Shown here piece by piece: positions 5,286-53,870 of a stretch of 64,000 bases of DNA. Both the position numbers and the translations under genes were made by a program. Position 1 is the stretch's first letter; each line of letters opens with the position of its first letter. The notes under the pieces were generated by a model, which worked only from the letters and a program-made list of their open reading frames with translations, searched no databases and was not told where the DNA came from. The stretch is from Phycisphaerae bacterium (lineage in GTDB: Bacteria > Planctomycetota > Phycisphaerae > UBA1845 > JAFGLZ01): the NCBI GenBank assembly GCA_016927755.1, contig JAFGLZ010000026.1:1-64000 (forward strand), in the 5' to 3' direction.

Positions 5286-5297
5286 ATCTCGATCCGA

Positions 5298-34120: not shown

Positions 34121-34122
34121 CC

Positions 34123-36551: not shown

Positions 36552-36762
36552 CGCCACGCAAGTCGTGGCCGGCAATGAACGAGAAGAGGATGTGTCGTCG
36601 GCTCGGGACAGGGACAGACGGCACGAGGTGTTTGCCTTTCGGTGACACCGCGCCAACAGTTCTGTATCAGGGCTTGTGGGGACTTGCGCGTGTGATCTGC
36701 ATGCCAAGGTCGCCTCTGGGATGTGGGTCCTTCGGAAGGCAGGCGCGCCGGACGAGGTTAAG

Positions 36763-37902: not shown

Positions 37903-37929
37903 CCCTGGCTCAGCACCAGAGGGACCGGC

Positions 37930-38574
37930 ATGACCTCCGATACGAAGGGCTCCAATCCGACCGGTTCATCAGCGCCCCTGGAGGGATTAGCCGATCCGAG
38001 GCGTGTCGACCCCGAGAGATGGGTGGACGAGCATGGCGACGCGATGTTCCGTTATGCGATGCTACAGGTCCGCGACCCGCACGTTGCGGAGGATCTCGTC
38101 CAGGAGAGTTTTCTGGCCGCACTGCAATCCGGTGGGTCCTTCCAGGGACGGTCCGCGGAGCGGACATGGCTGATCGGTATCCTGCGGCACAAGACCATCG
38201 ACCATATACGCAGACAAGGCCGTCAGGCGTCGTCCGTCGAACTCGAGGCCGCCGATCCCGTGGTGGACGGGATGTTCGATAAGAAGGGATGGTGGGCCAC
38301 TCGCCCCGTCAAGTGGAAGGACGACCCCGCTGCGCTGTTGGAGCAAGCGGAGTTTCGCAAGATTCTTCTGGACTGCATCCGCGCGCTCCCCCGCGCGCTT
38401 GCCGAGGCCTTTTCGCTCCGGGTCATGGAAGAGGTCGAACCCAGAGACGTGTGTAAGGTCCTGGAGATCACGTCGACTAATCTTTGGGTGATGCTCCACC
38501 GAGCCCGCTCTCGCCTCCGCGCATGCCTGGAGGCCAAGTGGTTCCGAAGGAGTCCTGCTGATGCTCACCTGTAG
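37930..38574 (+). CDS. ECF RNA polymerase sigma factor
   Basis: 214 residues. Region 2 (about 35-100) has MFRYAMLQVRDPHVAEDLVQ and ERTWLIGILRHKTIDHIRRQ. A 45-residue spacer with WWATRPVKWKDDP leads to region 4 (about 140-205), with ALPRALAEAFSLRVMEEVEP and ITSTNLWVMLHRARSRLRAC. It overlaps the anti-sigma gene by 14 bases. The DPxxWVDEHGDxMFRYA opening is typical of the ECF group paired with small zinc-finger anti-sigma factors. Confidence 0.93.
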   Translation: MTSDTKGSNPTGSSAPLEGLADPRRVDPERWVDEHGDAMFRYAMLQVRDPHVAEDLVQESFLAALQSGGSFQGRSAERTWLIGILRHKTIDHIRRQGRQASSVELEAADPVVDGMFDKKGWWATRPVKWKDDPAALLEQAEFRKILLDCIRALPRALAEAFSLRVMEEVEPRDVCKVLEITSTNLWVMLHRARSRLRACLEAKWFRRSPADAHL

Positions 38575-38821
38575 AGAGGCCACCAGGCTGTTATCCGAAG
38601 GCCTGGACCGAGAGTTGCCGCTTCGGCGGCGGGTCTCCCTGCGGCTGCACGTCATGATGTGCTCGGCCTGCCGAGCGTACGGCCGCCAGATCGAGGCGTT
38701 GAGTCAATTGGCCTCCAAGTTGTTTCGCAGCGATCGGTACCCTGACATTTCTGAAGACCGCGGGCTGTCTGACGATAGTCGTCGGAGGATCAAGGACACT
38801 CTTCGCCGACACATTCATTGA
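38561..38821 (+). CDS. Zinc-finger anti-sigma factor, no membrane domain
   Basis: 86 residues: MLTCREATRLLSEGLDRELP, then LRLHVMMCSACRAYGRQIEAL. This gives the HxxxCxxC zinc-binding motif of the ZAS anti-sigma fold. The C-terminal half is short, charged and lacks a TM segment, so the protein is cytoplasmic. That suggests direct sensing (redox or metal) rather than a transmembrane signal. It is translationally coupled to the sigma gene. Confidence 0.88.
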   Translation: MLTCREATRLLSEGLDRELPLRRRVSLRLHVMMCSACRAYGRQIEALSQLASKLFRSDRYPDISEDRGLSDDSRRRIKDTLRRHIH

Positions 38822-39086: not shown

Positions 39087-40283
39087 ATGGCGAGTGTCGA
39101 ATCCGAACGTGCTGTTGCCGCCGGCGGGAACGTCGAGGCGGCGGTCCTGCGGCGGTACAAGGAAGGCGCCAGGCAGGCTGAGGACGGGCTTTGCTGCCCG
39201 ACCAAGTATGACGAGGAGTCAGTGTCCTTTCTTCCGCGTGAGATCGTCGAGAAGGACTACGGCTGCGGCGATCCGTCCCGGTACGTGCGTGCAGGGGAAG
39301 CGGTGCTCGACCTGGGCAGCGGCGCGGGCAAGGTCTGCTACATCCTGGCCCAGAAGGTCGGCCCAGAGGGACGTGTCATCGGCGCGGACTTCAACGACGA
39401 GATGCTGGCCCTCTCCCGCAAGTACATCGACGAGGTGGCCGATCGGCTTGGCTACCGCAACGTCCGGTTCGTCAAGTGCAAGATTCAGGATCTGGCGCTG
39501 AGCCTCGACAAGGCACAGGCGTGGCTCGACGCGCACCCCATCACCGAGGTGGAGCACCTCTACGAATTCCAGGCGGAGTGTGACCGTCTGCGGCGGAAAG
39601 AGCCCTTGATCTCCGACGCGAGCGTTGACGTCGTCGTCTCCAACTGCGTATTGAACCTCGCCCGCCCGGAGGACAAGGGCACGTTGTTCGCGGAGATGCA
39701 TCGGGTCCTGAGGCGCGGCGGCCGGGCGGTCATCTCGGACATCGTCTGCGATGAGGACCCCACCCCCTCCATTCTGAGCGACCCCGACCTGTGGAGTGGT
39801 TGCATCGCCGGGGCCATGCGCGAGGACGTCTTCTTGGAGATGTTCGAGCGGGCGGGCTTCTATGGCATCGAGATAGTCTCCCGCCAGGACGAGCCCTGGC
39901 AGACCATCGAGGGCATTGAGTTCCGCTCCATGACCGTCCAGGCCTTCAAGGGCAAGGAAGGTCCGTGCATCGAGCGCAACCAGGCCGTCGTCTACAAGGG
40001 CCCATGGCGGTGCGTGTGTGACGATGACGGTCACACGCTCTACCGAGGCCAGCGTATGGCCGTTTGCGATAAGACCTTCGACATCATGACCAACCCGGCT
40101 GGTCCCTATGCCGGTCAGATCGTCTCGGTGGCTCCAAGGGAGGACGTTCCCCTGGACAAAGCTGGGGCGTTCGACTGCAACAGGAGCGTGACTCGTCATC
40201 CGCGGGAGACCAAGGGGCTGGAGTATCGTCCGACGGTGACGGCCAAGGAAGGGTCCTGCTGCGGGCCGGACTGTTGCGGGTAA
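39087..40283 (+). CDS. arsM: Arsenite S-adenosylmethionine methyltransferase-like protein
   Basis: 398 residues. SAM-binding motif I is VLDLGSGAGKVCYILAQKVG, followed by VIGADFNDEMLALSRKYI. ArsM-type cysteines are present: the pair in DGLCCPTKYD (about 36-37) and the one in VVSNCVLNLARPEDK. An 80-residue C-terminal extension carries FDIMTNPAGPYAGQIVSV and a Cys-rich end (CCGPDCCG). ArsM converts As(III) to methylated arsenicals. It is the first gene of a co-directional block with an aquaglyceroporin-like gene and ArsS, the pairing that defines arsenosugar synthesis. The start is the ATG at 39087, although GGGAGC ahead of it is a weak site. Confidence 0.92.
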   Translation: MASVESERAVAAGGNVEAAVLRRYKEGARQAEDGLCCPTKYDEESVSFLPREIVEKDYGCGDPSRYVRAGEAVLDLGSGAGKVCYILAQKVGPEGRVIGADFNDEMLALSRKYIDEVADRLGYRNVRFVKCKIQDLALSLDKAQAWLDAHPITEVEHLYEFQAECDRLRRKEPLISDASVDVVVSNCVLNLARPEDKGTLFAEMHRVLRRGGRAVISDIVCDEDPTPSILSDPDLWSGCIAGAMREDVFLEMFERAGFYGIEIVSRQDEPWQTIEGIEFRSMTVQAFKGKEGPCIERNQAVVYKGPWRCVCDDDGHTLYRGQRMAVCDKTFDIMTNPAGPYAGQIVSVAPREDVPLDKAGAFDCNRSVTRHPRETKGLEYRPTVTAKEGSCCGPDCCG

Positions 40284-40305
40284 CGGCCGATGAACGGAGT
40301 CTATC

Positions 40306-41238
40306 ATGACCTGTGACGTGAACCAGAGACTTGGAGCCATGTGCTTCGGCGAGTTCTTCGGCATGTTCCTACTGGTCCTGTTTGGGACGGCCACCGTCGC
40401 CGTGACCGTCTTGTTCAATGCGCACGCGGGCCTGCTTCAGGTAGCGATCGTCTGGGGCCTGGGGGTGACGCTCGCCATCTACGCGACGCGGCACCTTTCC
40501 TGCGCCCACCTGAATCCCGCCGTCTCGTTGGGGATGGTTCTTGCGGGGAGGATGCGCGGCCGATTGCTGCCCTGGTACTGGACGTCTCAAGTGCTGGGCG
40601 CCCTGCTCGCCGGCGCCGCAGTCCTGATGTTGTTTGGGGGTGCCATCACGCAATACGAATCAGCCCACGGGATCATTCGCGGCTCTCCCGAATCGATCCA
40701 GACCGCCATGATGTTCGGCGAGTACTTCCCAAACCCCGGCTTTGCAACCTCCGGTCTCGGCGTGACTCTTGGCACGGCCATGCTGGCCGAAGCCTTGGGC
40801 ACGTTCCTCCTGGTCACGATGATCTTCGTGCTAACGGAAGGGTGCAACGTCGGGAGACCCGGCGATGGCCTGGCGCCGGTCTTCATCGGCGCAACCGTCA
40901 CGGCGGTCATCTCCATCATCGCCCCTTTGACCCAGGCCGGGATCAACCCCGCCCGCGACTTCGGGCCGCGTCTGGTGTCGTATCTGGCCGGGTGGAAGAC
41001 CGTTGCGATCCCCGGACCACACGGCGGATTCTTCTGGGTCTACATTGCCGCGTCGCTGATAGGGGGTGCATCTGCCGCGGTTTGCTTTCGGTACCTTGTG
41101 GCTCCGCTCATGGGCGAGCAGCGACTCCGGGTCTCAACAGCGATCCAGGCACGGCAAGGACATGAGGAGCCTACAGATGCCATCGCCGTGCGAGTTGGGC
41201 CGGAGACCGAGGCCGCCCGAACGTCGCATTCGCATTAG
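40306..41238 (+). CDS. MIP-family aquaporin/glycerol facilitator, likely arsenical channel
   Basis: 310 residues with six TM helices and both half-helix motifs, HLNPAVSLG and GINPARDFGP; the second is the NPARD of glycerol- and aquaporins. A long hydrophilic C-terminus (about 260-310) is unusual. Position between arsM and arsS suggests it moves arsenite or methylated arsenicals, as AqpS-type channels do. Water or glycerol transport remains possible. Confidence 0.92.
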   Translation: MTCDVNQRLGAMCFGEFFGMFLLVLFGTATVAVTVLFNAHAGLLQVAIVWGLGVTLAIYATRHLSCAHLNPAVSLGMVLAGRMRGRLLPWYWTSQVLGALLAGAAVLMLFGGAITQYESAHGIIRGSPESIQTAMMFGEYFPNPGFATSGLGVTLGTAMLAEALGTFLLVTMIFVLTEGCNVGRPGDGLAPVFIGATVTAVISIIAPLTQAGINPARDFGPRLVSYLAGWKTVAIPGPHGGFFWVYIAASLIGGASAAVCFRYLVAPLMGEQRLRVSTAIQARQGHEEPTDAIAVRVGPETEAARTSHSH

Positions 41239-41252
41239 CCAGAGGTGAGGTT

Positions 41253-42230
41253 ATGTCGACAGAAGCGTCCTGCATCGGCCAAGACGAGTTCGAGGCCCTC
41301 ATTGCCAACGGCCCCGACGGCCTCCGGGCCCTCGAGATCGAAACCATTCAGGTGAACATCGGCCTGACATGTGATCTGGCCTGCCGCCACTGCCACCTTG
41401 AGTGCTCGCCCAACCGCACCGAGCAGATGAGCTCGGACACGATGCAGCTCGTGCTATCCGCTGCGAAGTGCGCCCGTTCGCGAACGATCGACATCACGGG
41501 TGGCGCGCCGGAGATGAACCCCCACTTCCGCGACTTCGTACGTTCGGCGCGGGCGCAAGGCCTGGAGGTGCTGGTCAGGACCAATCTGACCATCATGCTT
41601 CGTGATGGGAACGAGGATCTGCCGGACTTCCTGGCCGATCATAACGTGCATCTGATCGCGTCGCTGCCATGCTATACGGCCGAGAACGTCAACAGCCAGC
41701 GCGGTTCGCACGCTTACGAGGATTCTGCGAATGTGATTCAGCAGCTTAACGCGGTGGGTTTCGGCCGGCGTCCCGAGCTACCGTTGGATCTGGTCTACAA
41801 TCCATTGGGCCCCGCACTACCCCCAGACCAAGTCAACCTGGAACGAGACTATCGTGAGCAGCTCCGCCGTCGATTCGACATCCGGTTTACGCGGTTGTAC
41901 ACGATCGCCAACATGCCCATCGGCCGGTTCCTGGCTGGCCTGCGACGGGAGGGACGCGATGGTGAGTACCTGCGCCTGCTGCGCAATTCGTTCAACCCCC
42001 AGACGCTTGACGGTTTGATGTGCCGCCACCAGATCCATGTCAGTTGGGACGGAACGCTGCATGATTGCGACTTCAACTACGCGCTCGACCTGCCGGTCTG
42101 TGAGGATGCGGCGCAGCACATCCGGGATTTTGAGCCGGCGGCGCTCGCGACCCGACGCGTCGTTACCGGACCTCACTGTCTCGGCTGCACGGCCGGGCGG
42201 GGTTCGTCTTGTGGAGGGGCGTTGACATGA
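41253..42230 (+). CDS. arsS: Arsenosugar biosynthesis radical SAM protein ArsS
   Basis: 325 residues. The cluster motif CxxxCxxC is in GLTCDLACRHCHLECSPNR, followed by DITGGAPEMNPHFRDFVRSA and the downstream domain with YNPLGPALPPDQVNLERDY, NMPIGRFL, CRHQIHVSWDGTLHDCDFN and a Cys-rich end (CLGCTAGRGSSCGGAL). This is the radical SAM/Cys-rich (rSAM selenodomain-type) family, whose studied members add a 5'-deoxyadenosyl group to dimethylarsinous acid. Length and motifs are complete. The C-terminus ends at a normal stop; I see no SECIS-type reason to read the TGA as selenocysteine. Confidence 0.93.
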   Translation: MSTEASCIGQDEFEALIANGPDGLRALEIETIQVNIGLTCDLACRHCHLECSPNRTEQMSSDTMQLVLSAAKCARSRTIDITGGAPEMNPHFRDFVRSARAQGLEVLVRTNLTIMLRDGNEDLPDFLADHNVHLIASLPCYTAENVNSQRGSHAYEDSANVIQQLNAVGFGRRPELPLDLVYNPLGPALPPDQVNLERDYREQLRRRFDIRFTRLYTIANMPIGRFLAGLRREGRDGEYLRLLRNSFNPQTLDGLMCRHQIHVSWDGTLHDCDFNYALDLPVCEDAAQHIRDFEPAALATRRVVTGPHCLGCTAGRGSSCGGALT

Positions 42231-42379
42231 GGCTTGGGTCCCACAGCAGCGAGCGCACGCACCCTGATATCGTAACCGCCCTGGACATCGCGGGCAGATG
42301 CAGGATCGCACCCCTCTTACACGGCGCGCGGGATGGCGAGCATTACGCGAAACGACAAGGCCAGACGAAGGAGGCTGTC

Positions 42380-43303
42380 ATGGCCCTTCGAAAGACTATA
42401 GTCCTCACGGCGATTGGCGCAGCCGGGCTTGTGGGGATCTTGATCGCGGTCCTGGCCTACCGGGAGTTCTTCGGCGTACCGATGCAGTTCAGCGCACACT
42501 TGTATGCCACAGCGCCGACCTCAGCCAAGGGCACGTTCTCCTATGACGATTATGCGGCGGTCCTGAAGGAGTACGTCGATGATCGGGACATGGTCGACTA
42601 CGCGGCGCTGAAGGAGAACCGCCGTCGTCTGGATCAGTTCGCCCGGGCCTTGGCCTCCGTGAACCCCAAGACGTACGAGGGGTGGGATGCCCCGGCCAAG
42701 ATCGCGTTTTGGATCAATGCGTACAACGCCCTGACGCTGGAGGCCATCATCGATCACTATCCGATTCAGGCCGGGACATTGAGGTCGCTTGCCTTTCCCA
42801 AGAACAGCATCCGCCAGATCCCGGGGGTCTGGGACAAGCTCCAGTTCCTGGTCATGGGCAAGAAGATGACGCTGGAGCACATCGAGCATCAGGTGCTCCG
42901 GAAGGAGTTCGACGAGCCCAGAATCCACGTGGCGCTGGTCTGCGCCGCAATGGGCTGTCCACCGCTGCGCAACGAACCTTATGTTGGCCCAAGGCTCACC
43001 AAACAACTCGATGACCAGGCGCGGAAGTTCTTGTCCGATCCGGCCAAGTTCAGAATCGACCGCAACGGCGGCAAGGTCTACCTCTCCAGCATCTTCGAAT
43101 GGTTCGGCGGAGACTTCGTCGCGAAGTACAAGCCCGAGAGCGGATACGCCGGGCACAGCGACGCCCAGCGGGCGGTTCTCCATTTTGCCTCCGGGCACCT
43201 TCCGCCGGCGGACGCCAAGTACCTGCGGGATGGGCGATACAGCGTGGCCTATCTCGACTACGACTGGTCACTGAACGAGCAAGGCACGGCGGCTGGGCGC
43301 TAG
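42380..43303 (+). CDS. DUF547 protein
   Basis: 307 residues from the ATG at 42380 (GAAGGAGG ahead); frames starting earlier overlap arsS and lack a site. One N-terminal TM anchor (IVLTAIGAAGLVGILIAVLAY) is followed by the DUF547 domain: WDAPAKIAFWINAYNALTLE, HIEHQVLRKEFDEPRIHVAL and VCAAMGCPPLRNEPY. The family resembles papain-like or transglutaminase-like folds but its activity is unproven. It is a recurrent neighbour of arsS-type genes, and here lies between arsS and the TVP38 gene. Confidence 0.9.
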   Translation: MALRKTIVLTAIGAAGLVGILIAVLAYREFFGVPMQFSAHLYATAPTSAKGTFSYDDYAAVLKEYVDDRDMVDYAALKENRRRLDQFARALASVNPKTYEGWDAPAKIAFWINAYNALTLEAIIDHYPIQAGTLRSLAFPKNSIRQIPGVWDKLQFLVMGKKMTLEHIEHQVLRKEFDEPRIHVALVCAAMGCPPLRNEPYVGPRLTKQLDDQARKFLSDPAKFRIDRNGGKVYLSSIFEWFGGDFVAKYKPESGYAGHSDAQRAVLHFASGHLPPADAKYLRDGRYSVAYLDYDWSLNEQGTAAGR

Positions 43304-43335
43304 CCCGGTTCTTCGTGCATACGGAGTGTAGCGAT

Positions 43336-44115
43336 ATGTCCGAGGTTGCTGAAAACGCACCTGTGGCGGAGGCGCCACGAATCGCGTCATGGACGAAGTT
43401 GGTTCGCATCCTGATCGTGGGTGCGGTCGTTGGAGCGCTGGCCGTCGCGGCATTCCTGCTGCCTGTCAGGGACACCCTCGTCGCCGGTTTGGAGTGGACC
43501 CGGGGCCTCGGAGTGTGGGGACCGATCTTCGTGGTCGGCTTCTACATCGTGGCGTGCGTGTTTCTGCTGCCGGGATCCGCCCTGACGATCGGATCGGGGT
43601 TCCTATTCGGCGTGGTCGTTGGAACGATCACGGTCTCGATCGGTAGCACGCTTGGGGCATGCGCGGCCTTCATTGTCGGTCGGACCGTCGCTCGCAATTG
43701 GATCGAGCAGAAGGTCACGGGGCGACCGCGCTTCGCCGCCATTGACGAAGCCGTCGGCCGAGAGGGCTTCAAGATCGTCCTGTTGACCCGCCTGAGCCCG
43801 ATCTTCCCGTTCAACTTCCAGAACTACGCATACGGTCTTACGAAGGTGCCGCTGACGAAATACGCCCTGGCCTCGTGGATCGGCATGCTCCCCGGAACGA
43901 TCATGTACGTGTACATCGGCTCGGCGGCCCGGTCGCTGGCAGAGGTCGCTGCGGGGACAGTTGAAAGCTCGTCCGCCCAGCGGATCTTCTTTTGGGTTGG
44001 TTTGGCCGCGACCGTTGCGGTGGCCGTGCTGGTGACCCGCATCGCACGTAAGGCCCTTAACGAAGCGGTGGCCTCGACGGAAAGGACTGAAGATGGCGCC
44101 GGACGGTCTGATTAA
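43336..44115 (+). CDS. TVP38/TMEM64 (DedA-like) membrane protein
   Basis: 259 residues from the ATG at 43336. About five TM helices; family signatures are FLLPGSALTIGSGFLFGVVV, the basic loop FIVGRTVARNWIEQKV, REGFKIVLLTRLSPIFPFNF and the following NYAYGLTKVPLTKY. The C-terminus overlaps the flavoprotein gene by 23 bases. This pair, and sometimes an actual fusion, of TVP38 with a MerA-like oxidoreductase is common, and the two probably act together at the membrane. Role: unknown; lipid scrambling has been proposed for relatives. Confidence 0.92.
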   Translation: MSEVAENAPVAEAPRIASWTKLVRILIVGAVVGALAVAAFLLPVRDTLVAGLEWTRGLGVWGPIFVVGFYIVACVFLLPGSALTIGSGFLFGVVVGTITVSIGSTLGACAAFIVGRTVARNWIEQKVTGRPRFAAIDEAVGREGFKIVLLTRLSPIFPFNFQNYAYGLTKVPLTKYALASWIGMLPGTIMYVYIGSAARSLAEVAAGTVESSSAQRIFFWVGLAATVAVAVLVTRIARKALNEAVASTERTEDGAGRSD

Positions 44116-45613
44116 GCCCTGGGACGCCCATAATGAGGCCCTGCTGCAGAACGCGCATCCACCGGACTGGGTCAATCCTGAGCCGAGCGGCCGGTACAAC
44201 CTGGTGGTGATCGGGGCTGGAACGGCTGGGTTGGTGACGGCAGCCGGAGCGGCGGGCATGGGAGCCCAGGTCGCCCTCATCGAGCGGCACCTGATGGGGG
44301 GCGATTGCCTCAACTTCGGCTGCGTGCCGAGCAAGACGATCATCCGCTCCTCGCGAACGGCCCACGAAATCCGGACCGCTGGCAGATTCGGCGTCTGCGC
44401 CGGCGACGGCGTGACGGTCGATTTCGCCTCGGTCATGGAACGGATGCGCCGGATTCGAAGCCACATCAGCGAGCACGATTCCGCCCAACGCTTTGGCGAC
44501 TTGGGTATCGACGTCCACCTGGGCGAAGCCCGTTTCACGGGGCCGGATACCGTTCAAGTGGCCGGCAAGACGTTGCGATTCGCCCGCGCATGCATCGCCA
44601 CGGGAGCCCGAGCCGCGGTTCCAGGAACCGACGGACTTGAGGAAGCCGGCTTTCTGACCAACGAAACGGTGTTCTCGCTGACCGATCGCCCCGCCCGACT
44701 GGCGGTGCTGGGGGGTGGTCCCATCGGCTGCGAGCTCGGCCAGGCGTTTGCCCGGCTGGGCAGTCACGTGACGCTCATCCATTCCCACGAACGGTTGTTG
44801 CCGCGCGAGGATGCGGACGTCTCGGGCATTCTGCTGGAGGCCTTCCGACGTGAGGACATCCCGGTCCTGCTCAACGCGCGCATCCTGCGCGTCCGCGCCT
44901 CAAACGGCGGCAAGATGCTCACCGTCGCTTCAGAAGGTAGAGAGCGCACGGTGGAAGTCGACGAGATCCTGGTGGCGACGGGCCGGCAGCCCAACGTCGA
45001 GGACCTCGGGCTTGAGGCAGCCGGTGTAACCTACGACCGCAGGCAGGGCGTGCTCGTGAACGACAGACTTCAGACGAGGAATCCGCGGATCTATGCCGCC
45101 GGCGACGTCTGCATGCGACATAAGTTCACGCACGCCGCCGATGCCGCCGCCCGCATCGTGATTCAGAACGCCCTCTTCTGGGGACGCAAGAAGCTCAGCG
45201 CGCTGACGATCCCCTGGTGCTCGTACACCGATCCCGAGGTCGCCCACGTCGGCCTGTATGAGCATGAGGCCCAAACGATGGGCATCGAGGTCGAAACACT
45301 CACTCGTCACTTCGAGGATGTCGACCGGGCCGTCACGGATGGGACGGAGGAAGGCATCGCCCGAGTGCACGTGAAGAAGGGAACTGACAAGATCCTCGGC
45401 GCGACCATCGTGGCTGCCCATGCTGGCGACATGATCAACGAGATTACCCTGGCGATGGTGGCTGGCATTGGGCTGGGTACGCTCGGCGGTGTCATTCATC
45501 CGTACCCTACGCAGGCGGAGGCCATCAAGCAGCTCGGCGATGCCTACAACCGCACGCGCCTGACGCCGCTTCTCAAGAAGGTCTTCACGAAGATCCTCGC
45601 GTGGCGGAGGTGA
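44093..45613 (+). CDS. MerA-like FAD-dependent pyridine nucleotide-disulfide oxidoreductase
   Basis: 506 residues. FAD site VVIGAGTAGLVTAAGAAGMG, redox-active disulfide in GGDCLNFGCVPSK, NAD(P)H site AVLGGGPIGCELGQAFARLG, second FAD contact IYAAGDV, and a C-terminal dimerisation domain with the catalytic-type HPYPTQAEA. It lacks the N-terminal HMA domain and the C-terminal Cys-Cys pair of true mercuric reductase, so mercury reduction is unlikely. In this setting it may reduce an arsenical or a thiol partner. It is coupled to the TVP38 gene. Confidence 0.93.
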   Translation: MAPDGLIKPWDAHNEALLQNAHPPDWVNPEPSGRYNLVVIGAGTAGLVTAAGAAGMGAQVALIERHLMGGDCLNFGCVPSKTIIRSSRTAHEIRTAGRFGVCAGDGVTVDFASVMERMRRIRSHISEHDSAQRFGDLGIDVHLGEARFTGPDTVQVAGKTLRFARACIATGARAAVPGTDGLEEAGFLTNETVFSLTDRPARLAVLGGGPIGCELGQAFARLGSHVTLIHSHERLLPREDADVSGILLEAFRREDIPVLLNARILRVRASNGGKMLTVASEGRERTVEVDEILVATGRQPNVEDLGLEAAGVTYDRRQGVLVNDRLQTRNPRIYAAGDVCMRHKFTHAADAAARIVIQNALFWGRKKLSALTIPWCSYTDPEVAHVGLYEHEAQTMGIEVETLTRHFEDVDRAVTDGTEEGIARVHVKKGTDKILGATIVAAHAGDMINEITLAMVAGIGLGTLGGVIHPYPTQAEAIKQLGDAYNRTRLTPLLKKVFTKILAWRR

Positions 45614-45706
45614 GCCGGGTTGCCCTTGTCTTGGCGAGCCCTGTGGCTGCGGTCGCCGCTGGCGTAGGAGACTCAGCGACGATCCCGCCACGAGAAAGAT
45701 CGACTC

Positions 45707-47290
45707 ATGGCAGAGCTGGTTGGCGGCATTTCGGATGACGGCTCACCTCGCAAGGAAGCCTTGCCGCTAGGTCACTACATTCGGCACAGCCTCACTAGGT
45801 TTCGACAGCGGATTCGCCCCGTAGGGAAACAAACGGCTCGGCTGGGTCTCTGGCTGGAGATGGAGGTGTTCCCGAGCGCCAAGAGGGCCGGCCACGAGGC
45901 CGTTGGCCTGGATGTTCTCCCGCATGGCGAGATCCGGCTGAAGGAGACGAGGAACGTGCGCGCCGCCGTAAGCTTGGACGATTGCCAAGAACTCTGCGCC
46001 TTCCTGGAACACCTGGCCATCCATCGCCTGAAGCTGGATACACGGCTTGAGAGCAACCAGGTACAGGACGTGTTGACGCTACTGTACGCGTATCGCCGGG
46101 AGCTGGCCCTCAACCGCGAGGATGGGGAAACGACGGCAGGCATGGGCGGCCACCTGCGCAGCGACCGCGGTGCACACGTCAGTTGCGCCAAACTGCGCTT
46201 GCAAGGCCATCTTCTGGTTGTTGAGTATAGCTACTGTGTCACCCGCCTGAGCCTGGCGGTGCGTTGGTTTGAAGGAAGACATCGACACTTCAACGACCAT
46301 CGTGCCCTCTTCCGCGCTGCGCCGCGCTATGGGGCACTGGCGGCCGCCATGGTCGTTGCGATCCTGCTGATTCACGTGTTCACAGACAGCCTGCCGCTGT
46401 TGATCGGTATGACGTTGCTCCAAGCCGTCATCTTGTTCGCGGCGGTGTACGTGTTCCTGCGCGGCATGGGGAGCATCGAGTATGACAACGAAGAGAAGGC
46501 CTACCGACTCGGTCGGGCGCACGCAGCGTTGGAGCGATACGCCGATCGGATTCGCAACGACCTGGCGCTGGCCAGTGCGGTTCAACAGAAGCTCCTTCCC
46601 GACCGGCGACACATGCCTCAAACCGATCGGCTCGAATGGGCCAGCAGCTTCGTCCCCGAGACCGAGGTGGGCGGCGATTACTTCGACGCCGCCGAGCTAG
46701 GCAAGGGAAAGGTGGCGATGGTATTCGCCGATGTGAGTGGACACGGGACGGCGGCGGCGCTGATCACCGTGATCGTCAAGATGGCGTTCAGGGCATGGGT
46801 TGAGGTACAGCTTCCGCTGACCGACTTTGTCCGTCGGGTCAATCGAGACCTCTGGCGGTTCACGCCAGACGAAAGATTCGTTGTCCTGGTCGCAGCGGTT
46901 CTCGATGACACGATGGGACGGCTTGATTATGTGAATTGCGGCCATGCCCCGCAACCTTTCTTCGTGCCGTCCGATCCCTCCCGGCCGATTACGAGCCTCA
47001 CCCGGACAGGGGCCATGCTGCTGGGTGTGGAGGAAGAGATCGAGGTAGACGAAGCGACCCAGCCGCTCGTTCGCGGGGATAGGATCCTTCTGGCCACGGA
47101 TGGTCTGACCGAAGCGGCGGACAGCCAAGGCCGATTCTACGGAAAGGAACGACTGAGCGAGTTCCTTCAGGCTCATCGTTCCATGAACCTGGAAGAGTTG
47201 GTGGCTGCGCTCACGGAGGATGTCGCCCGATTCTCGGCGGAGACCGAGCAAAGCGACGACCGCACGGTGTTGGCCTTCCAGGTTCGCTGA
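45707..47290 (+). CDS. Membrane-bound SpoIIE-type PP2C phosphatase
   Basis: 527 residues. The N-terminal 200 residues are of unknown type. Two TM helices follow (GALAAAMVVAILLIHVF and LLIGMTLLQAVILFAAVYVF, about 205-250), then a short helix and the PP2C_SIG/SpoIIE domain from about 290. Its metal-binding acidic residues are ETEVGGDYFD, FADVSGHGTAAAL and LLATDGLTEA, ending in QSDDRTVLAF. Such phosphatases act on anti-anti-sigma factors or other phosphoproteins. No partner of that kind lies in the window. Confidence 0.9.
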   Translation: MAELVGGISDDGSPRKEALPLGHYIRHSLTRFRQRIRPVGKQTARLGLWLEMEVFPSAKRAGHEAVGLDVLPHGEIRLKETRNVRAAVSLDDCQELCAFLEHLAIHRLKLDTRLESNQVQDVLTLLYAYRRELALNREDGETTAGMGGHLRSDRGAHVSCAKLRLQGHLLVVEYSYCVTRLSLAVRWFEGRHRHFNDHRALFRAAPRYGALAAAMVVAILLIHVFTDSLPLLIGMTLLQAVILFAAVYVFLRGMGSIEYDNEEKAYRLGRAHAALERYADRIRNDLALASAVQQKLLPDRRHMPQTDRLEWASSFVPETEVGGDYFDAAELGKGKVAMVFADVSGHGTAAALITVIVKMAFRAWVEVQLPLTDFVRRVNRDLWRFTPDERFVVLVAAVLDDTMGRLDYVNCGHAPQPFFVPSDPSRPITSLTRTGAMLLGVEEEIEVDEATQPLVRGDRILLATDGLTEAADSQGRFYGKERLSEFLQAHRSMNLEELVAALTEDVARFSAETEQSDDRTVLAFQVR

Positions 47291-47397
47291 GGACGAAGAC
47301 CGACAGCACGCGCGGCATTGTTGGACAGGATTATTCGAGTTGTGGCCGCCGACGGCGACGTCGGCGCCGGTGTGGCCCTTACGAAGGAGCGGTTCCC

Positions 47398-47841
47398 ATG
47401 TCCAAGAGACATCTATCTTACGCGGTCGGCTCGGTGGCAATTGGGGCCTGTGCCTGGGCGATCTTGGCCAGGGCGGCGGAGCCGGCCTCGGTCGCGCAGC
47501 CGAACGGATCGCGTCTGGCGGTGGTCTGGAGCAGCGGCGATCCGGATGTGGCACACCGCGTCTGCCTCATGTACACACATGCGGCGGTCAAGAACCGGTG
47601 GTTCAACGAAGTGCGACTGATCGTCTGGGGTCCGTCGGCCAGGCTGCTGGCGGGTGACAAGGACCTCCAGGCGAAGATCAAGGAGATGATGAAGGACGGC
47701 GTGAACGTTCAGGCATGCATCGTGTGCGCCGACTCCTACGGAGTCACGGAGGCCCTGCGGTCGCTGGGGATTGAGGTCAATGCCATGGGCCGACCCCTGA
47801 CGGATTTCCTCAAGAGCGACTATAAGGTGCTGACGTTTTGA
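47398..47841 (+). CDS. Exported DsrE-family protein
   Basis: 147 residues. A signal peptide (VGSVAIGACAWAILARAAEP) precedes a DsrE/DsrF-like fold: RLAVVWSSGDPDVAHRVCLM, VRLIVWGPSARLLAGDK and the conserved VQACIVCADSYGVTEALRSL with a possible active Cys pair. Export of a DsrE-type protein suggests periplasmic sulfur or thiol handling. It lies between the phosphatase and the hydroxylase genes. Confidence 0.85.
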   Translation: MSKRHLSYAVGSVAIGACAWAILARAAEPASVAQPNGSRLAVVWSSGDPDVAHRVCLMYTHAAVKNRWFNEVRLIVWGPSARLLAGDKDLQAKIKEMMKDGVNVQACIVCADSYGVTEALRSLGIEVNAMGRPLTDFLKSDYKVLTF

Positions 47842-47863
47842 ACACGCTTGCTGACCTCAAGGA

Positions 47864-48664
47864 GTGACCACGCGATTGGCCAAGTGGAAGTTGGCGATAA
47901 CGGCTGCTGTCTTCATCGTCCTATGGGTGGGCGAGCGATTCGCGCCGACCGCGGAGGGGCGTGTCGGGCGGCTGCCACATGCCGCTCGCAACCTCTGTCT
48001 GGGCCTGCTCAACGCCGCTGTGGTGACGCTGGCGTTTGGTTCGGGAGCCCTGTACGTTACCGAAGCGGCTCGGGAGGCGAATCTCGGTCTACTCCATTGG
48101 CTGAACTGGCCCTGGTTGGCGGAGTGTGTGGTGGCCGTGGTGGTGTTCGATGCCTGGCAATACCTCTGGCACCGGCTGAACCACCGGGTTCCGTTTCTCT
48201 GGCGATTCCACGCCGTGCACCATTCCGACGGCGACATGGATGCCAGCACGGCGCTTCGATTTCACACCGGAGAGATCGTCTTCTCTTCGATCGCTCGCCT
48301 GGCCGTTCTTCCGATCCTGGGCATGCAGCTCGTGCAGGTGTTGATCTACGAGCTGATACTCCAGCCGATCATCCTGTTCCACCACAGCAACGTTCGCGTG
48401 CCGCGCCGTGTGGACCGCGCCCTGCGGGTCGTTCTGGTCACCCCCTGGATGCACTGGGTTCACCACTCCAACTACCGCCCGGAGACCGACTCGAACTACT
48501 CCAGCGTGTTTTCCTTCTGGGACCGCCTGTTCGGATCGTATGGGGTTCAAAAAGCTCCATGGGAAGTCAACTTGGGACTGGTCCAGTACGAAAAGACCGT
48601 GTGGTGGAGTCTTCGAGGGATGCTGCTGATCCCATTCCGACCGGTTCGTCGGCCTGGCCGATAG
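47864..48664 (+). CDS. Fatty-acid-hydroxylase/sterol-desaturase family membrane enzyme
   Basis: 266 residues, four or five TM helices, with the di-iron histidine clusters HRLNH, HAVHH, and HWVHHS plus the accessory HHSNVR. Members hydroxylate or desaturate lipids using O2, or cleave ether lipids. Within a block for arsenosugar synthesis it could modify the lipid part of an arsenolipid, but that is inference. GTG 47864 overlaps its own ribosome site (AAGGAG); TTG at 47876 has better spacing and is an alternative start. Confidence 0.9.
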   Translation: MTTRLAKWKLAITAAVFIVLWVGERFAPTAEGRVGRLPHAARNLCLGLLNAAVVTLAFGSGALYVTEAAREANLGLLHWLNWPWLAECVVAVVVFDAWQYLWHRLNHRVPFLWRFHAVHHSDGDMDASTALRFHTGEIVFSSIARLAVLPILGMQLVQVLIYELILQPIILFHHSNVRVPRRVDRALRVVLVTPWMHWVHHSNYRPETDSNYSSVFSFWDRLFGSYGVQKAPWEVNLGLVQYEKTVWWSLRGMLLIPFRPVRRPGR

Positions 48665-48712
48665 GCTGGGACTGAGAGGGGATCCTCGTTCGGTCGTTGT
48701 TCATCTTGTCCT

Positions 48713-50194
48713 ATGAAGCGCGGGTACCGCATGGATCCGGAGCAACACGTCCAACGCGAGATCGTCAGAAACGGAGAAGCCGAATCGCCCGGCGCAAGCC
48801 CGCTCCTAGGACAGCGGCAAACTGCTTGGAGCCTTGGCGGCCTTCTTATCCTCTCTCTGACGATCATGTTGGCCCTCACAGGCCGTCTCGGCTACGGCGA
48901 TGATGCCATCGTCTTACGCGGTACCTTACCGATAACGCTATTCCTCTTGGCCGGAGTCGTTTACCTGGTCGGCTCGTGGCTGTCGCTGAACAGGCGGTTG
49001 TCGCGTCGGCAGGTGCTCCTGCTGATCGTCGTCGCGGTGGGAATGCGAGTTGCGGCCGTGCCGATGCCGCTGGCCCGAGGGGATGACTTCGAACGTTACC
49101 TCTGGGACGGTGCGGTCACCGCCGCGGGAATCAACCCCTACCTCTACTCGCCCAAGGCAGTGGCCGAGGGCGGCGTGGCGGATCCGACACTCCGTTCGCT
49201 TGCGGCGCGGAGTCAAGGCGTTCTGCGCAACGTCAATCACGCGGAGCTTCGCGCGATCTATCCGCCCGTCGCGCAGGGACTGTTTGCAGTTGCCCACCTG
49301 CTGACGCCGTTTGACACAACTGGCTGGCGGATCGTCTTAGCCTTGGTGGATCTGCTGACCGTGCTGCTGCTTGTCCTGTTGCTGCGGTCCGCGGGACTCG
49401 CACTGGGCAACCTGGCCATCTATCTCTGGAATCCCTTGCTGGTCTTTGAAACCTACGCGCGGCTGCATCTGGATCTTGCCGTCGTGCCGTTTCTGCTTGT
49501 TGCGGCTTGGGGATTGGTGAGACGGCGACCTCTGATCGCGGGGGCCTTCCTGGCCACGGCGGCGGGCGTCAAGCTGTGGCCGGCGGTGCTCGCACCGTTT
49601 CTCGTGGGAGCGTTCCGCGATGCCCGTCGCCGCTTGCTAGCCGCGTCGACAGCCTTTGCCGGGATCTGTCTGCTGATGGCGATTCCGTTTTCTTCCGCTT
49701 TCGGGGGTGAAAACAGCGGCGTCGTGGTCTATGGCGCTACCTGGGAGACACCAACCGGGGCCTTTCGCCTGGCGCAGGCGCTGGGATGGCTTCTCGTCAG
49801 GCAGCTCGATCTGTCCATGCAAGCAGGACTCATCGCACGGACGGTCGCGATGGGGCTACTGTTGGTCGCGGCCGTCTGGATCGGTACGCGCCGAGCGGAT
49901 AGGTCGACCGAGATCTGCACGCGAATGGAGATCGTCGTCCTGCTGATGCTGCTGCTGAGCCCGACGGTCTGGCCCTGGTACTACGTGCCGGCCATTCCGC
50001 TAGCGGTTATCGCGCCGCGAGCCAGCGCCCTGATTTGGACCGCGATCCTGCCGTTGATCTACCTGGCCAACGTGATGCCGCCGCCCCACGTATTGGGCGC
50101 CCTGATCCACCTGCCCGTGTGGGTCTTGCTCGGGCTCGAGTGGGCTCGGTATCGGACCGCGCCGGCGGGCCCGGAGGGCGAGCCCTATGCGTGA
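48713..50194 (+). CDS. GT87-type polyprenyl-phosphate-mannose-dependent glycosyltransferase
   Basis: 493 residues with about ten TM helices. The acidic first-loop motif is RGDDFERYLWDGAVTAAGIN, followed by NPYLYSP and IYPPVAQGLFAVAHLL; further motifs are NPLLVFETYARLHLDLAVVP and GVKLWPAVLAPFLVGAF. This fits the DUF2029/GT87 and related GT-C families, which use decaprenyl-phosphate-mannose donors. Its stop overlaps the start of the GT2 fusion by 8 bases; the fusion's first domain resembles dolichyl-phosphate-mannose synthase, so the two could form a donor-synthesis/transfer pair. The start may be ATG 48713 or 48731. Confidence 0.85.
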   Translation: MKRGYRMDPEQHVQREIVRNGEAESPGASPLLGQRQTAWSLGGLLILSLTIMLALTGRLGYGDDAIVLRGTLPITLFLLAGVVYLVGSWLSLNRRLSRRQVLLLIVVAVGMRVAAVPMPLARGDDFERYLWDGAVTAAGINPYLYSPKAVAEGGVADPTLRSLAARSQGVLRNVNHAELRAIYPPVAQGLFAVAHLLTPFDTTGWRIVLALVDLLTVLLLVLLLRSAGLALGNLAIYLWNPLLVFETYARLHLDLAVVPFLLVAAWGLVRRRPLIAGAFLATAAGVKLWPAVLAPFLVGAFRDARRRLLAASTAFAGICLLMAIPFSSAFGGENSGVVVYGATWETPTGAFRLAQALGWLLVRQLDLSMQAGLIARTVAMGLLLVAAVWIGTRRADRSTEICTRMEIVVLLMLLLSPTVWPWYYVPAIPLAVIAPRASALIWTAILPLIYLANVMPPPHVLGALIHLPVWVLLGLEWARYRTAPAGPEGEPYA

Positions 50195-52199
50195 GGGCCG
50201 GGCGATCAACGTGGTGATTCCGGCGCTGAACGAGGCCGCGTCGATCGGGAAGGTCCTTGCGGCGATCCCTGACTGGGTCGACGAAGTGATCGTCGTAGAC
50301 AATGGCTCGACGGACGATACCGCGGCAATCGCAGAGCAGGCGGGCGCGACGGTTGTTCGCGAACCGCGCCGGGGGTACGGTCAAGCGTGTCAGACGGGCA
50401 TGGCGGCGATCTCGTGGTGCGACGTCCTGGTCTTCTTGGACGCGGATTTCAGCGACCATCCCGAAGAGATGGATCGGCTCGTGGGCCCGATCGTCCGTGG
50501 TGAGGCAGACCTGGTCATCGGTTCGCGAACACTGGGCAATCCGTCGGGCGCCGGGCTGACCGTTCCCCAACGTTTCGGCACATCGCTGGCTTGTATGCTC
50601 ATGAACCTCATCTGGCGAACGCACCATACGGACCTGGGCCCCTTCCGCGCCGTACGTTGGTCGGCCTTGCGATCGCTTCACATGCGCGACAGGAACTACG
50701 GCTGGACGATCGAGATGCAGATCAAGGCCGCTCGCGCGAAGCTACGGGTCATCGAGGTGCCGGTCCGCTACCGCCCGCGCATCGGCGTCTCGAAGATCTC
50801 GGGCACGGTCCGAGGCGTCATCGGGGCCGGAACGAAGATTCTCGTCACGATCGCCCGGTACGCTCTGCTGCCCGCACCGTCGCGTGTGTACTCGCGGGGT
50901 CGACTGATCGTGTTCACGCGCTATCCCCTTCCGGGCAAGGCCAAGACACGCCTGATCCCAGAACTGGGCGCTTTGCGCGCAGCGGCCTTTCAGCGGACGA
51001 TGACGGAGCGAACGATCCGAACCGCACGTGACTGCGCCGGATCGCTGAGAGCAGATATCGAGATCCGCTACGCCGGGGGGCACGACCGAAAGGTACGCCG
51101 CTGGCTGGGAAACGGTCTCGTCGTCAGGCCACAAGGGGATGGCGATCTCGGAAGGCGCATGCGTCGCGCATCTCTCGATGCGTTCGACAGCGATTGCAGC
51201 CGCGTCCTTATCATCGGGACCGACTGTCCGGAGCTCTCGGCCTGCGATCTGCGACGAGCCTTCGAGGCGATCGAAGAGCACGACGTAGTCCTCGGCCCCA
51301 GCACGGACGGAGGCTATTGGTTGATCGGTTTACGCAGTCCGGCGGAGGTCTTTGAAGGCGTCGACTGGAGCACCCCGCGGGTCGTGGAGCAGACGCTCGC
51401 GCTGGCGTCCTCGGCTGGTTTGTCGGTCGCCATCCTCGATGAGCACACAGACATCGACACGCCCGAGGATTTCCAGGACGCGATACCTGACCAGGACGCG
51501 TTCTCGTCTCCGGAGATCCCCTACCTGTCCGTCATCATCCCCGCCCGAGATGAAGCGGAGCACATCGAGGCCGCTATCGCAACGGCCCAAGCCGACGGCA
51601 TCGAAATCATCGTCGTGGACGGCCACAGCTCGGACCAAACCGCCGCCCTGGCCGAGCGAGCCGGGGCTCGCGTCTTGACGTGTCCGCCACACCGAGCGCG
51701 GCAGATGAACAAGGGCGCGGCGATTGCCCGAGGGAAGATCCTCCTCTTTCTCCACGCCGATACGAGGCTTCCAGACGACTACACCCTCCCCCTGTTCGAC
51801 GCCCTCTCGGATGCGAGCGTCGTCGGGGGCGCCTTCGGCTACAAGACCGACATGTCGGGCCCCGGCGTGTCCCTCCTCGAACGGCTTGTAGGGTTCCGTT
51901 CCCGAGTACTCTGCCTCCCGTACGGAGACCAAGCCTTATTCGTCCGGAGATCGATCTTCGAGTCGTTGGGCGGCTTCGACGACGTCTCCGTGGCCGAGGA
52001 CCTGCGATTCGTCCGGCGTCTCCGGTGCCGCGGCCGGATCATGGTCCTTGCCGAGCCCGCCGTCACCTCCGGGCGACGGTCGCGACGACTCGGCCTCCTG
52101 CGAACCACGCTGGTCAACCAGGTCATTGTGGCGGGATGCTTCCTCGCCCTCCCGGATCCCATGCTCAACTCGTTCTATCGCCGATGGGAGGAGACGTGA
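50187..52199 (+). CDS. Three-domain fusion: GT2 (DPM-like) - DUF2064 - GT2
   Basis: 670 residues containing three enzymes. Residues 1-235 are a GT2 family glycosyltransferase of the DPM1 type, VVIPALNEAASIGKVLAAIP with DAD motif LVFLDADFSDHPEE. Residues 240-440 are DUF2064, a CofC-like nucleotidyltransferase fold (TIGR04282, rSAM/selenodomain-associated transferase 1): FTRYPLPGKAKTRLIPELG, IGTDCPELSACDLRRAF, LGPSTDGGYWLIGL. Residues 447-670 are a second GT2 (TIGR04283, transferase 2): VIIPARDEAEHIEAAIATAQ, HADTRLP, LPYGDQALFVRR. The last two families are usually adjacent genes next to radical SAM/selenodomain (ArsS) proteins. The triple fusion implies a channelled reaction series. The start at 50187 overlaps the GT87 stop. 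Confidence 0.92.
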   Translation: MREGRAINVVIPALNEAASIGKVLAAIPDWVDEVIVVDNGSTDDTAAIAEQAGATVVREPRRGYGQACQTGMAAISWCDVLVFLDADFSDHPEEMDRLVGPIVRGEADLVIGSRTLGNPSGAGLTVPQRFGTSLACMLMNLIWRTHHTDLGPFRAVRWSALRSLHMRDRNYGWTIEMQIKAARAKLRVIEVPVRYRPRIGVSKISGTVRGVIGAGTKILVTIARYALLPAPSRVYSRGRLIVFTRYPLPGKAKTRLIPELGALRAAAFQRTMTERTIRTARDCAGSLRADIEIRYAGGHDRKVRRWLGNGLVVRPQGDGDLGRRMRRASLDAFDSDCSRVLIIGTDCPELSACDLRRAFEAIEEHDVVLGPSTDGGYWLIGLRSPAEVFEGVDWSTPRVVEQTLALASSAGLSVAILDEHTDIDTPEDFQDAIPDQDAFSSPEIPYLSVIIPARDEAEHIEAAIATAQADGIEIIVVDGHSSDQTAALAERAGARVLTCPPHRARQMNKGAAIARGKILLFLHADTRLPDDYTLPLFDALSDASVVGGAFGYKTDMSGPGVSLLERLVGFRSRVLCLPYGDQALFVRRSIFESLGGFDDVSVAEDLRFVRRLRCRGRIMVLAEPAVTSGRRSRRLGLLRTTLVNQVIVAGCFLALPDPMLNSFYRRWEET

Positions 52200-52541
52200 G
52201 CCCGCAACGCGGACAACTGGTACTGATTCGGGGCCGGACACGCCCGCCTGCACGTCGCAGCCGTGCGGCGAAGCTTGCCCATCACGGAATCCGTCTCGTC
52301 CTCGTGGATCCCGGGACGTTCTGGTATTCGGGCCTGGCGACGGGCATGCTTGCGGGTCAGTACGACGTGCGGGAAGACCAAATCGACCCGGCCCAACTTG
52401 TGCAGCGAGGAGGCGGGCATCCTGTGCGCGAACGTATGATTGGATTGGACGCGAGCGAGAGGACCATCGCATTGGCCTCGGGGGACACACTGGAATACGA
52501 CGCGCTTTCGCTGGACATGGGGAGCGAGGTGGATATCCGCG
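52196..52541 (+). pseudogene. Decayed NDH/SelD-associated FAD oxidoreductase, N-terminal part
   Basis: GTG at 52196 overlaps the fusion's stop. The frame reads QLVLIRGRTRPPARRSRAAK, whereas the neighbouring frame gives GAGHARLHVAAVRRSL, the FAD-binding GGGHAHLHVL motif of this family. Two compensating frameshifts therefore scramble the nucleotide-binding site. Downstream the family sequence returns: LVLVDPGTFWYSGLATGMLA, GQYDVREDQIDPAQLVQRGG and SGDTLEYDALSLDMGSEVDI. The reading then breaks off; the remaining 250 or more residues (and any SelD partner domain) are missing. Such flavoproteins occur with the two transferase families fused upstream. Confidence 0.8.
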
Positions 52542-52719
52542 TGATGACTTGCGCATCACGGGCTCCCATCACCAGAACAGTATCGACATTTCTCTGGCGG
52601 TGATCGACGAGATGAGGAAGGACATCGGAGTTCCCGTCATCCGAAACGTAGAGCCCCACAACGGATCGGCGGACATGATAATCCACCGTCGATGCGACTT
52701 GAGAAGGTGGGCAGGATGA
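52542..52719 (+). pseudogene. C-terminal fragment of an unidentified operon protein
   Basis: In the frame next to the flavoprotein remnant, the bases read LRITGSHHQNSIDISLAVID, EMRKDIGVPVIRNVEPHNGS, ADMIIHRRCDLRRWAG, then stop. The composition and the ATGA overlap with the cysteine desulfurase start indicate the true end of a coding gene. I do not recognise the family. Together with the preceding fragment it suggests a deletion that joined two genes, or that removed the middle of one. Confidence 0.55.
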
Positions 52720-53870
52720 CACCTGGCAGGATCTATCTGGATTTCAACGCCAGCACGCCGATCGCCCCAGAGGCGGCCGACGCCATGCGGCCGTTCCTGT
52801 CCGACCACTACGGCAATCCGTCGAGCCAGCACTGGGCGGGCCTGCCGGCCAAACAGGCCGTAGAGGGCGCGCGATCCCAAGTGGCCGGCCTGCTGGGTTG
52901 CTCACCCGAAGAGATCGTCTTCACCAGCGGAGGGACGGAATCCAACAACCACGCCATCAAGGGGGTCTTCTTCGCGCTCCGCGACCGGGGAAACCACGTC
53001 ATCACGTCATCGGTGGAGCATCCTGCGACGCTACAGCCTTGCCGATTCCTGGCCAGACTCGGCGCTGAGATCAGCTACCTCCGCGTGGACGGAACGGGGA
53101 TGGTGGATCCCGACGACGTTCGGAAAGCCATCACAAAGCAGACCATCCTCGTGACGGTCATGCACGCCAACAACGAGGTGGGAACGATACAGCCCATCAT
53201 AGAGATCGCCCGGATCGCCCGAGAACACGGCGTCCTCTTCCACACGGACGCCGCCCAATCGGTCGGGAAGATCTCGACCAAGGTCGCAGAACTTGGCGTG
53301 GATCTGCTGTCCGTAGCGGGCCACAAGGTTTACGCGCCGAAGGGAGTCGGGGCCCTATACGTTCGCCGAGGAGTCACCATCGAGCCGCTTGTCCACGGAG
53401 CCGGCCACGAAAGCGGTCGGCGTGCGGGGACGGAGAATGTCCTTCTAGATGTCGGTCTTGGCGCGGCGTGCGAGGTCGCCGGCGAATGGGTCGGGATGCC
53501 TCAAGTCCGGCGGCTTCGCGACCGATTCTGGGAGATGCTGCGCGAAGCGTTGGGGGATCGCGTCGTCCTCAATGGCCATCCGACTGAACGGCTCCCCAAC
53601 ACGCTCAACGTGTCGTTCGTCGGTCAGATCGGCGCCGATGTTCTATCCCGGCTTGATGGTGTGGCCGCGTCCACGGGGTCGGCCTGCCACGAGGGCGAAG
53701 TCGAGATCTCTCCCGTCCTGAAGGCAATGGACGTTGCGCCGGAAGTTGCCGCAGGCGCCATCCGCTTCAGCCTGGGCAGGACGACGAGCATGGGCGAGAT
53801 CGCATGCATCGTCGACCAGTTCAAGCATCTAGCCCTGCAGATGCCAGATCTGGGCAAACGGCAGCCTTGA
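52716..53870 (+). CDS. Cysteine desulfurase (NifS/IscS-like)
   Basis: 384 residues from the ATG at 52716 (AAGGTGG ahead). Aminotransferase class V fold: IYLDFNASTPIAPEAADAMR, FTSGGTESNNHAIKG, His in SSVEHPATLQP, PLP Lys in LSVAGHKVYAPKGVGAL, and the persulfide Cys in AASTGSACHEGEVEIS. Provides sulfur, or selenium, from cysteine or selenocysteine. As the last gene of the block beside rSAM/selenodomain-associated transferases and a decayed flavoprotein, it may serve thiolation or selenium delivery there. It is not accompanied by IscU or Suf genes, so a general Fe-S role is less likely. Confidence 0.95.
   Translation: MTPGRIYLDFNASTPIAPEAADAMRPFLSDHYGNPSSQHWAGLPAKQAVEGARSQVAGLLGCSPEEIVFTSGGTESNNHAIKGVFFALRDRGNHVITSSVEHPATLQPCRFLARLGAEISYLRVDGTGMVDPDDVRKAITKQTILVTVMHANNEVGTIQPIIEIARIAREHGVLFHTDAAQSVGKISTKVAELGVDLLSVAGHKVYAPKGVGALYVRRGVTIEPLVHGAGHESGRRAGTENVLLDVGLGAACEVAGEWVGMPQVRRLRDRFWEMLREALGDRVVLNGHPTERLPNTLNVSFVGQIGADVLSRLDGVAASTGSACHEGEVEISPVLKAMDVAPEVAAGAIRFSLGRTTSMGEIACIVDQFKHLALQMPDLGKRQP

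Follow-up and report, generated by a model that had tools for sequence, protein, structure and literature searches.

The window analyzed here comprises 64,000 nucleotides at the start of a contig (JAFGLZ010000026.1) in the 9.25-Mb genome of a planctomycete, a Phycisphaerae bacterium whose nearest ArsS relatives are metagenome-assembled genomes of Phycisphaerae. On its plus strand, as are all of the genes below unless stated, lie genes for ArsM, an As(III) S-adenosylmethionine (SAM) methyltransferase (39087..40283), and ArsS, a radical SAM enzyme of the Cys form with a DUF3641 domain (41253..42230). The genes around ArsM-ArsS very probably form a functional unit, and the chances are about even that the locus is a chromosomal organoarsenical-biosynthesis cluster of the ArsM-ArsS type that works by the steps proposed below. 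The sea is rich in arsenosugars and arsenolipids, and to our knowledge, only the first two bacterial arsenosugar enzymes, ArsM and ArsS, have been characterized. The comparison presented here provides the poorly known later steps of arsenosugar and arsenolipid synthesis with named, testable candidate genes: a small recurrent set, some of it fused into single polypeptides, that could account for the activation, transfer, and membrane steps and is distinguished from passengers. A second radical SAM arrangement, lacking ArsS, was also found. The link between ArsS and glycosyltransferases (GTs) is existing annotation rather than a new result, since NCBI names both TIGR04282 and TIGR04283 "arsenosugar biosynthesis glycosyltransferase"; what is new is the extended module, its fusions, and its ArsS-free form.

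ArsS scores 406 with the equivalog model TIGR04167, against a cut-off of 300, and contains both the radical SAM core (PF04055) and DUF3641 (PF12345, 172 bits). By the function of its family, known from the literature, it would transfer a 5'-deoxyadenosyl group to a dimethylarsenical. PMC8552651 and PMC12159101 cite work characterizing ArsM and ArsS, and the function of SsArsS with SsArsM in the cyanobacterial arsenosugar pathway is among the findings cited in the former. In ArsM, Cys60, Cys187, and Cys239 align with Cys72, Cys174, and Cys224 of a solved arsenic methyltransferase and are invariant across 68 aligned ArsM sequences. ArsM lies under all of the NCBIfam ArsM cut-offs, its best score being that with the arsinothricin-type model (308 vs. 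500). This match, together with the description of TIGR04167 as a (seleno)protein family and the finding with ArsL that radical SAM enzymes can put another part of SAM on arsenic (PMC8552651), would fit a product other than an arsenosugar, either a different organoarsenical (for example, one bearing a 3-amino-3-carboxypropyl group) or a selenium compound. However, ArsS exceeds the arsenosugar equivalog cut-off by 106 bits, and genes of the ArsL and arsQ types are absent from the block; such a product is considered quite improbable.

Downstream of ArsS is a gene (50187..52199) for a 670-residue fusion of a GT2 domain of the polyprenyl-phosphate type (GT2N), DUF2064 (TIGR04282), and a second GT2 domain (GT2C, TIGR04283), preceded by the gene for a GT87-like GT-C glycosyltransferase (48713..50194; PF09594, 38 bits vs. 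cut-off 25). The recurrence of these and other neighbors was followed in 80 ArsS neighborhoods from named genomes, 39 more from the phylum, and 20 TIGR04283 neighborhoods in ArsS-free genomes. Counts refer to 116 nonduplicate ArsS loci and 21 controls (20 arbitrary 20-kb regions plus one added region) and were made with hidden Markov models (HMMs) built from the first 80-locus set. DUF2064 is found near ArsS at 62 of these loci, GT2C at 58, ArsM at 56, a TVP38 protein at 41, DUF547 and a MerA-like reductase at 40 each, GT87 at 23, an extracytoplasmic function (ECF) sigma factor at 20, an anti-sigma factor at 19, GT2N at 18, and DUF3179 at 15, and none of them is found in any control; over all regions other than the ArsS loci, the count for the MerA-like and anti-sigma genes is 0 of 41. 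Fisher p values lie between 7e-7 (DUF2064) and 0.04 (GT2N), except for DUF3179, the only one above 0.05 (0.071). Restricting the count to the 35 nearest loci gives 26 for TVP38, 25 for the MerA-like protein, 23 each for DUF547 and ArsM, 17 for GT2C, 15 for DUF2064, 12 for GT87, 11 each for GT2N and the ECF factor, and 0 for the aquaporin. Across 294 genomes of the phylum, ArsS is present in 91, TIGR04283 in 91, and both in 55 (odds ratio 7.1). Pairwise distances of ArsS and its neighbors correlate positively in every case, a result uncorrected for shared descent and not used as evidence.

The initial annotation had described a co-directional 15-kb cluster whose GT and lipid genes would fit the assembly of arsenosugar glycosides or phospholipids, and the co-occurrence of those genes with arsS elsewhere had been set beforehand as the test that could refute it. 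Pfam and NCBIfam scans place all of the genes it named on one strand at the expected coordinates. The GT genes do recur (18 to 62 of 116 loci vs. 0 of 21 controls), as do DUF547, TVP38, and the MerA-like gene; for the lipid enzyme, a member of the fatty-acid hydroxylase family, co-occurrence is weak (5 of 116 loci overall, not significant relative to controls, and none of the 35 nearest). The aquaporin and the DsrE-family protein, both included in that proposal, are nonrecurrent, as are a SpoIIE-type phosphatase and a NifS-like cysteine desulfurase that it had left unnamed; a conserved regulator upstream had been missed.

Both of the curated GT families are represented in the fusion, which passes TIGR04282 (206 vs. 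134) and TIGR04283 (263 vs. 182). GT2N is of the polyprenyl-phosphate/AglJ/GpgS kind and matches GpgS, dolichol-phosphate mannose synthase, and ArnC, and DUF2064 resembles by sequence the CofC/MobA nucleotidyltransferases (CofC, 45 bits; PDB 3cgx match). Catalytic residues are intact, namely, the invariant KTR and Asp pairs of DUF2064, the DxD of GT2N, and the HxD and ED of GT2C. The predicted model of GT87 (pLDDT 82) has a GT-C fold, with the conserved Asp in the first outer loop and with D125, R128, and Y129 invariant. Its first 14 Foldseek matches are all GT-C family structures, mostly users of polyprenyl-phospho-sugars (ArnT, GPI mannosyltransferase I, PimE, ALG6, ALG3, ALG12, and ALG9), together with GPI-transamidase subunits of the same fold; the probability is at least 0.97, yet the E-values are just 1.6e-3 to 8e-2. 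Comparison of the sequence profile with the PDB gives GPI mannosyltransferase 1 and the mannosyltransferase 9dm5 (PimE) at E-values of 1e-7 to 1e-6.

These domains are joined in other combinations elsewhere. DUF2064-GT2C is fused in 14 open frames and GT2N-DUF2064-GT2C in 12 frames at other loci, GT87-GT2N in two loci (L175 and L194), and GT87-GT2N-DUF2064 in one (L188); in L067, GT87, GT2N, DUF2064, and GT2C all lie within one protein of 1141 residues. In the window, the GT87 gene overlaps the fusion gene by 8 bases. The nested fusions and the overlaps in the window therefore indicate that GT87, GT2N, DUF2064, and GT2C act together. Furthermore, ArsM and DUF2064 share one open reading frame in L170 (6772-8859), which ties DUF2064 to ArsM. 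It is somewhat more probable than not that the GT domains act on an arsenosugar; an ArnC/ArnT-like membrane step on that sugar, suggested by analogy, is somewhat short of an even chance.

Several observations weigh against reading the locus as an arsenosugar cluster. ArsM misses the cut-off of the AsSugarArsM model NF038099 (117 vs. 400), and an enzyme to remove adenine is not in the cluster, five genes of the PNP/MTAN family being located elsewhere in the genome. The HMMs were trained on ArsS-locus sequences, which favors the first set over the controls, of which there are few, and the loci share descent, for which the counts are uncorrected. TVP38-type (COG0398) proteins are believed to transport phospholipid and not undecaprenyl phosphate (PMC10127716); consequently, a polyprenyl-recycling role for TVP38 is weakened, and its candidacy as an undecaprenyl-phosphate flippase is disfavored. 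ArsS occurs without TIGR04283 in 36 of 91 genomes and TIGR04283 without ArsS in 36 of 91, lower-scoring GT87-like transferases are present without ArsS, and GT2N and GT87 could attach an ordinary sugar. The occurrence of TIGR04283 without ArsS, the lack of any other cluster gene at several of the ArsS-free TIGR04283 loci examined, and the genome-wide presence of lower-scoring GT87-like genes would be expected if just ArsM and ArsS make the arsenosugar and if GT87 and the GT2 fusion glycosylate an ordinary envelope lipid, being co-located through the same stress response. However, in many of the ArsS-free TIGR04283 genomes, ArsM adjoins a radical SAM enzyme or is fused to one. In addition, of the 11 genomes among 294 that have a cluster-type GT87 (at least 400 bits), 10 also have ArsS, a count that is partly circular in that 6 of 14 profile rows come from these genomes, and the single ArsM/DUF2064 frame of L170 does not fit a GT module separate from arsenic. 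The glycosylation of an ordinary envelope lipid is considered unlikely.

The ArsS-free genomes provide a further line of evidence. A fusion of a radical SAM enzyme with ArsM was first met among the 36 TIGR04283-positive, ArsS-free genomes and was then counted over the phylum, where 16 of the 294 planctomycete genomes encode it. ArsS is absent from every one of these 16 (hypergeometric p 0.002), and 12 have TIGR04283 (p 0.0002). The ArsM cysteines are kept in the five fusions examined, and a CNLxCxHC motif is present in 15 of 16. The fusions match the ArsS profile over the radical SAM core alone (approximately positions 5 to 150 of 302) and not over the DUF3641 part, and they are thus not ArsS orthologues; examples are L132:3250-5760, L122:8014-10572, and L208-L220, and SPASM was detected in both of those scanned by Pfam. 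Several occur in the same module. L209 has the ECF factor, TVP38, the MerA-like protein, GT87-GT2N, DUF547, a PiT phosphate transporter, and DUF2064, with its radical SAM and ArsM parts split by a stop; L213 has TIGR04283, DUF2064, TVP38, and the MerA-like protein; and L217 and L219 have GT87 and GT2N. In L221, PiT, DUF547, TVP38, the MerA-like protein, DUF2064, and TIGR04283 accompany ArsM and a separate radical SAM enzyme. These results suggest that ArsS is replaceable while the module persists, and the fact that an unrelated radical SAM enzyme is found among the same neighbors is the best indication that the module is there for a product of ArsM plus a radical SAM enzyme rather than by chance. 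A description of such fusions was not found in the open literature, which is weak evidence of novelty. A broader and speculative idea, judged unlikely as a whole, is that there is a family of clusters in which ArsM and a radical SAM enzyme supply one common module (DUF2064, GT2C, GT2N-GT87, DUF547, TVP38, MerA-like, PiT, and ECF). This module would follow an ArnC/ArnT-like route to produce and export an arsenosugar linked to polyprenyl or lipid, the radical SAM place being filled by ArsS here and in other planctomycetes by an unrelated enzyme, mostly with a SPASM-like C-terminus, fused to ArsM.

The remaining members of the recurrent core begin upstream of arsM, with three genes at 36676-38821 that had gone unnamed: a DUF3179 protein (36676..37902; PF11376, 248 bits), which is an upstream member of the conserved neighborhood, an ECF-type sigma factor (37930..38574; Sigma70_r2/r4_2), a candidate cluster regulator, and a zinc-finger anti-sigma factor (38561..38821; zf-HC2, PF13490, 37 bits). 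The sigma factor is 41-54% identical to ECF genes of 14 other ArsS loci, the H-x3-C-x2-C motif of the anti-sigma factor is conserved in the alignment, and the pair is possibly a thiol-based sensor of arsenic or redox state. An ECF sigma factor with a zf-HC2 anti-sigma factor recurs beside ArsS in planctomycetes and gammaproteobacteria. Downstream of ArsS are a membrane-anchored DUF547 protein (PF04784; best start at 42380, with AGGAGG upstream, giving 42380..43303) with conserved His183, Cys188, and Cys193, whose confident model (pLDDT 85) had no match in a fold search of the PDB, and a TVP38/VTT-domain membrane protein (43336..44115; PF09335), a putative lipid flippase. TVP38 and DUF547 are fused in 26 open frames. 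The TVP38 gene overlaps by 23 bases that of the MerA-like FAD disulfide oxidoreductase (44093..45613), which has Cys72 and Cys77. This protein is not MerA proper, because it scores under the TIGR02053 cut-off (397 vs. 454) and over that of the "FAD-containing oxidoreductase" model NF004991 (821 vs. 620); the C-terminal vicinal cysteines of MerA are missing, the last Cys being residue 376 of 506. A search of the open literature, with most subscription papers outside its reach, returned nothing on ArsS with glycosyltransferases, on selenodomain names, or on ECF factors with arsenic.

The other genes of the block are variable. Between arsM and arsS, about 10 relatives have a PiT transporter (PF01384; for example, L032, L034, L035, L037, L038, and L043) where the window has the aquaporin (40306..41238; MIP, PF00230, 133 bits). 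The aquaporin of the window may functionally stand in for PiT as a transporter, and a similar aquaporin lies near ArsM in L117; in other relatives, MFS transporters lie upstream. As pathway members, the aquaporin, SpoIIE (45707..47290; PF07228), and DsrE (47398..47841; PF02635) were rejected at 0 of 116 ArsS loci each and NifS (52692..53870, at the block end) at 1 of 116 vs. 1 of 21 controls; SpoIIE, DsrE, and NifS are regarded as passengers. The OlsE-like hydroxylase (47864..48664; PF04116, 102 bits) scores 73 bits against an OlsE (NF052566) cut-off of 475, is absent from the 35 nearest loci, and belongs to a family that is rare (10 of 119 genomes above 190 bits). Alignment-independent matches to it are separated from TIGR04283 genes by 72 bases in G088 and by 5 kb in G031, it adjoins such genes in ArsS-free genomes as well, and in L130, it is found with ArsR, TVP38, a radical SAM-ArsM fusion, and TIGR04283. 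It is treated as a sporadic accessory that does not prove a lipid product. The lineage-specific neighbors (SpoIIE, DsrE, NifS, and the aquaporin) and the presence of MerR, MerT/HMA, and a second MerA-like gene near some ArsS loci would be consistent with a metal(loid)-resistance island, in which arsenic methylation and mercury or oxidative-stress genes were gathered by co-selection and have no joint product. However, the recurrent core keeps its order and strand, with overlaps of 8 to 23 bases in the window and single-polypeptide fusions in several lineages, and resistance islands do not explain glycosyltransferase fusions; a mere resistance island is therefore very unlikely.

The arsenosugar pathway that we favor would proceed as follows. 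ArsM, as its conserved arsenic-binding cysteines suggest, would methylate As(III) to a dimethylarsenical; the MerA-like protein, as a dithiol oxidoreductase, may hold the arsenic trivalent; and ArsS, from the literature on its family, would join the dimethylarsenical to the 5'-deoxyadenosyl group. A nucleosidase or phosphorylase coded elsewhere would then remove adenine to give dimethylarsinoyl-ribose, after which DUF2064 might activate the sugar and the TIGR04283 GT2 might transfer it to a glycerol-type or lipid acceptor. The known arsenosugar phospholipids are dimethylarsinoyl-ribosides of the phosphatidylglycerol type, and the action of this GT2 on a phosphatidylglycerol-like acceptor would explain them. 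At the membrane, the ArnC-like GT2N could attach a sugar, possibly the arseno-pentose itself, to polyprenyl phosphate, and the ArnT-like GT87 could pass it on to an acceptor at the outer face, with TVP38 aiding lipid flipping. That the final product is lipid-linked is a tentative and rather doubtful suggestion. The ECF sigma factor, with its thiol/zinc anti-sigma factor, would control the cluster.

Beyond the cluster, positions 28764-36551 upstream hold what resembles a potassium/osmotic set (amino-acid permease/Usp, KdpD-type sensor kinase, response regulator, and TrkH), and the flanking KefB and TrkH genes did not recur at the 116 ArsS loci. At 5214-10841, a tRNA-Gly is followed by a Prim-Pol/AAA protein (8685-10841, minus strand), possibly an integrated element. 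Positions 52200-52600, which lie between the fusion and nifS-like genes, resemble, by eye only, a broken remnant of an FAD-dependent oxidoreductase (reading ...VLVDPGTFWYSGLATGMLAGQYD...), for which there is no Pfam match.

Among known systems, the arsinothricin cluster arsQML (PMC8552651) is similar in that ArsM adjoins a radical SAM enzyme that forms a C-As bond; unlike the window, which has ArsS and not ArsL, it has no glycosyltransferases as described. The locus resembles the cyanobacterial SsArsM/SsArsS pathway in that the ArsS equivalog and both GT families are over their cut-offs and the ArsM cysteines are kept, but it differs in its added and partly fused GT2N and GT87, in an ArsM that falls under the AsSugarArsM model, and in its DUF547, TVP38, MerA-like, and ECF neighbors. 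The coupling or fusion of a GT2 of the polyprenyl-phosphate type with a GT-C enzyme is shared with ArnC/ArnT, which handle Und-P-aminoarabinose, and with PimE and GPI-mannosyltransferase I. Unlike these systems, the window has a soluble GT2-DUF2064-GT2 fusion, and its GT87 is 14-18% identical to the solved enzymes. The likeness to ArnC/ArnT is claimed only in the sense of "works like." ArnC/ArnT is the nearest working precedent: ArnT moves a modified pentose to lipid, and the pentose here may be the arsenosugar.

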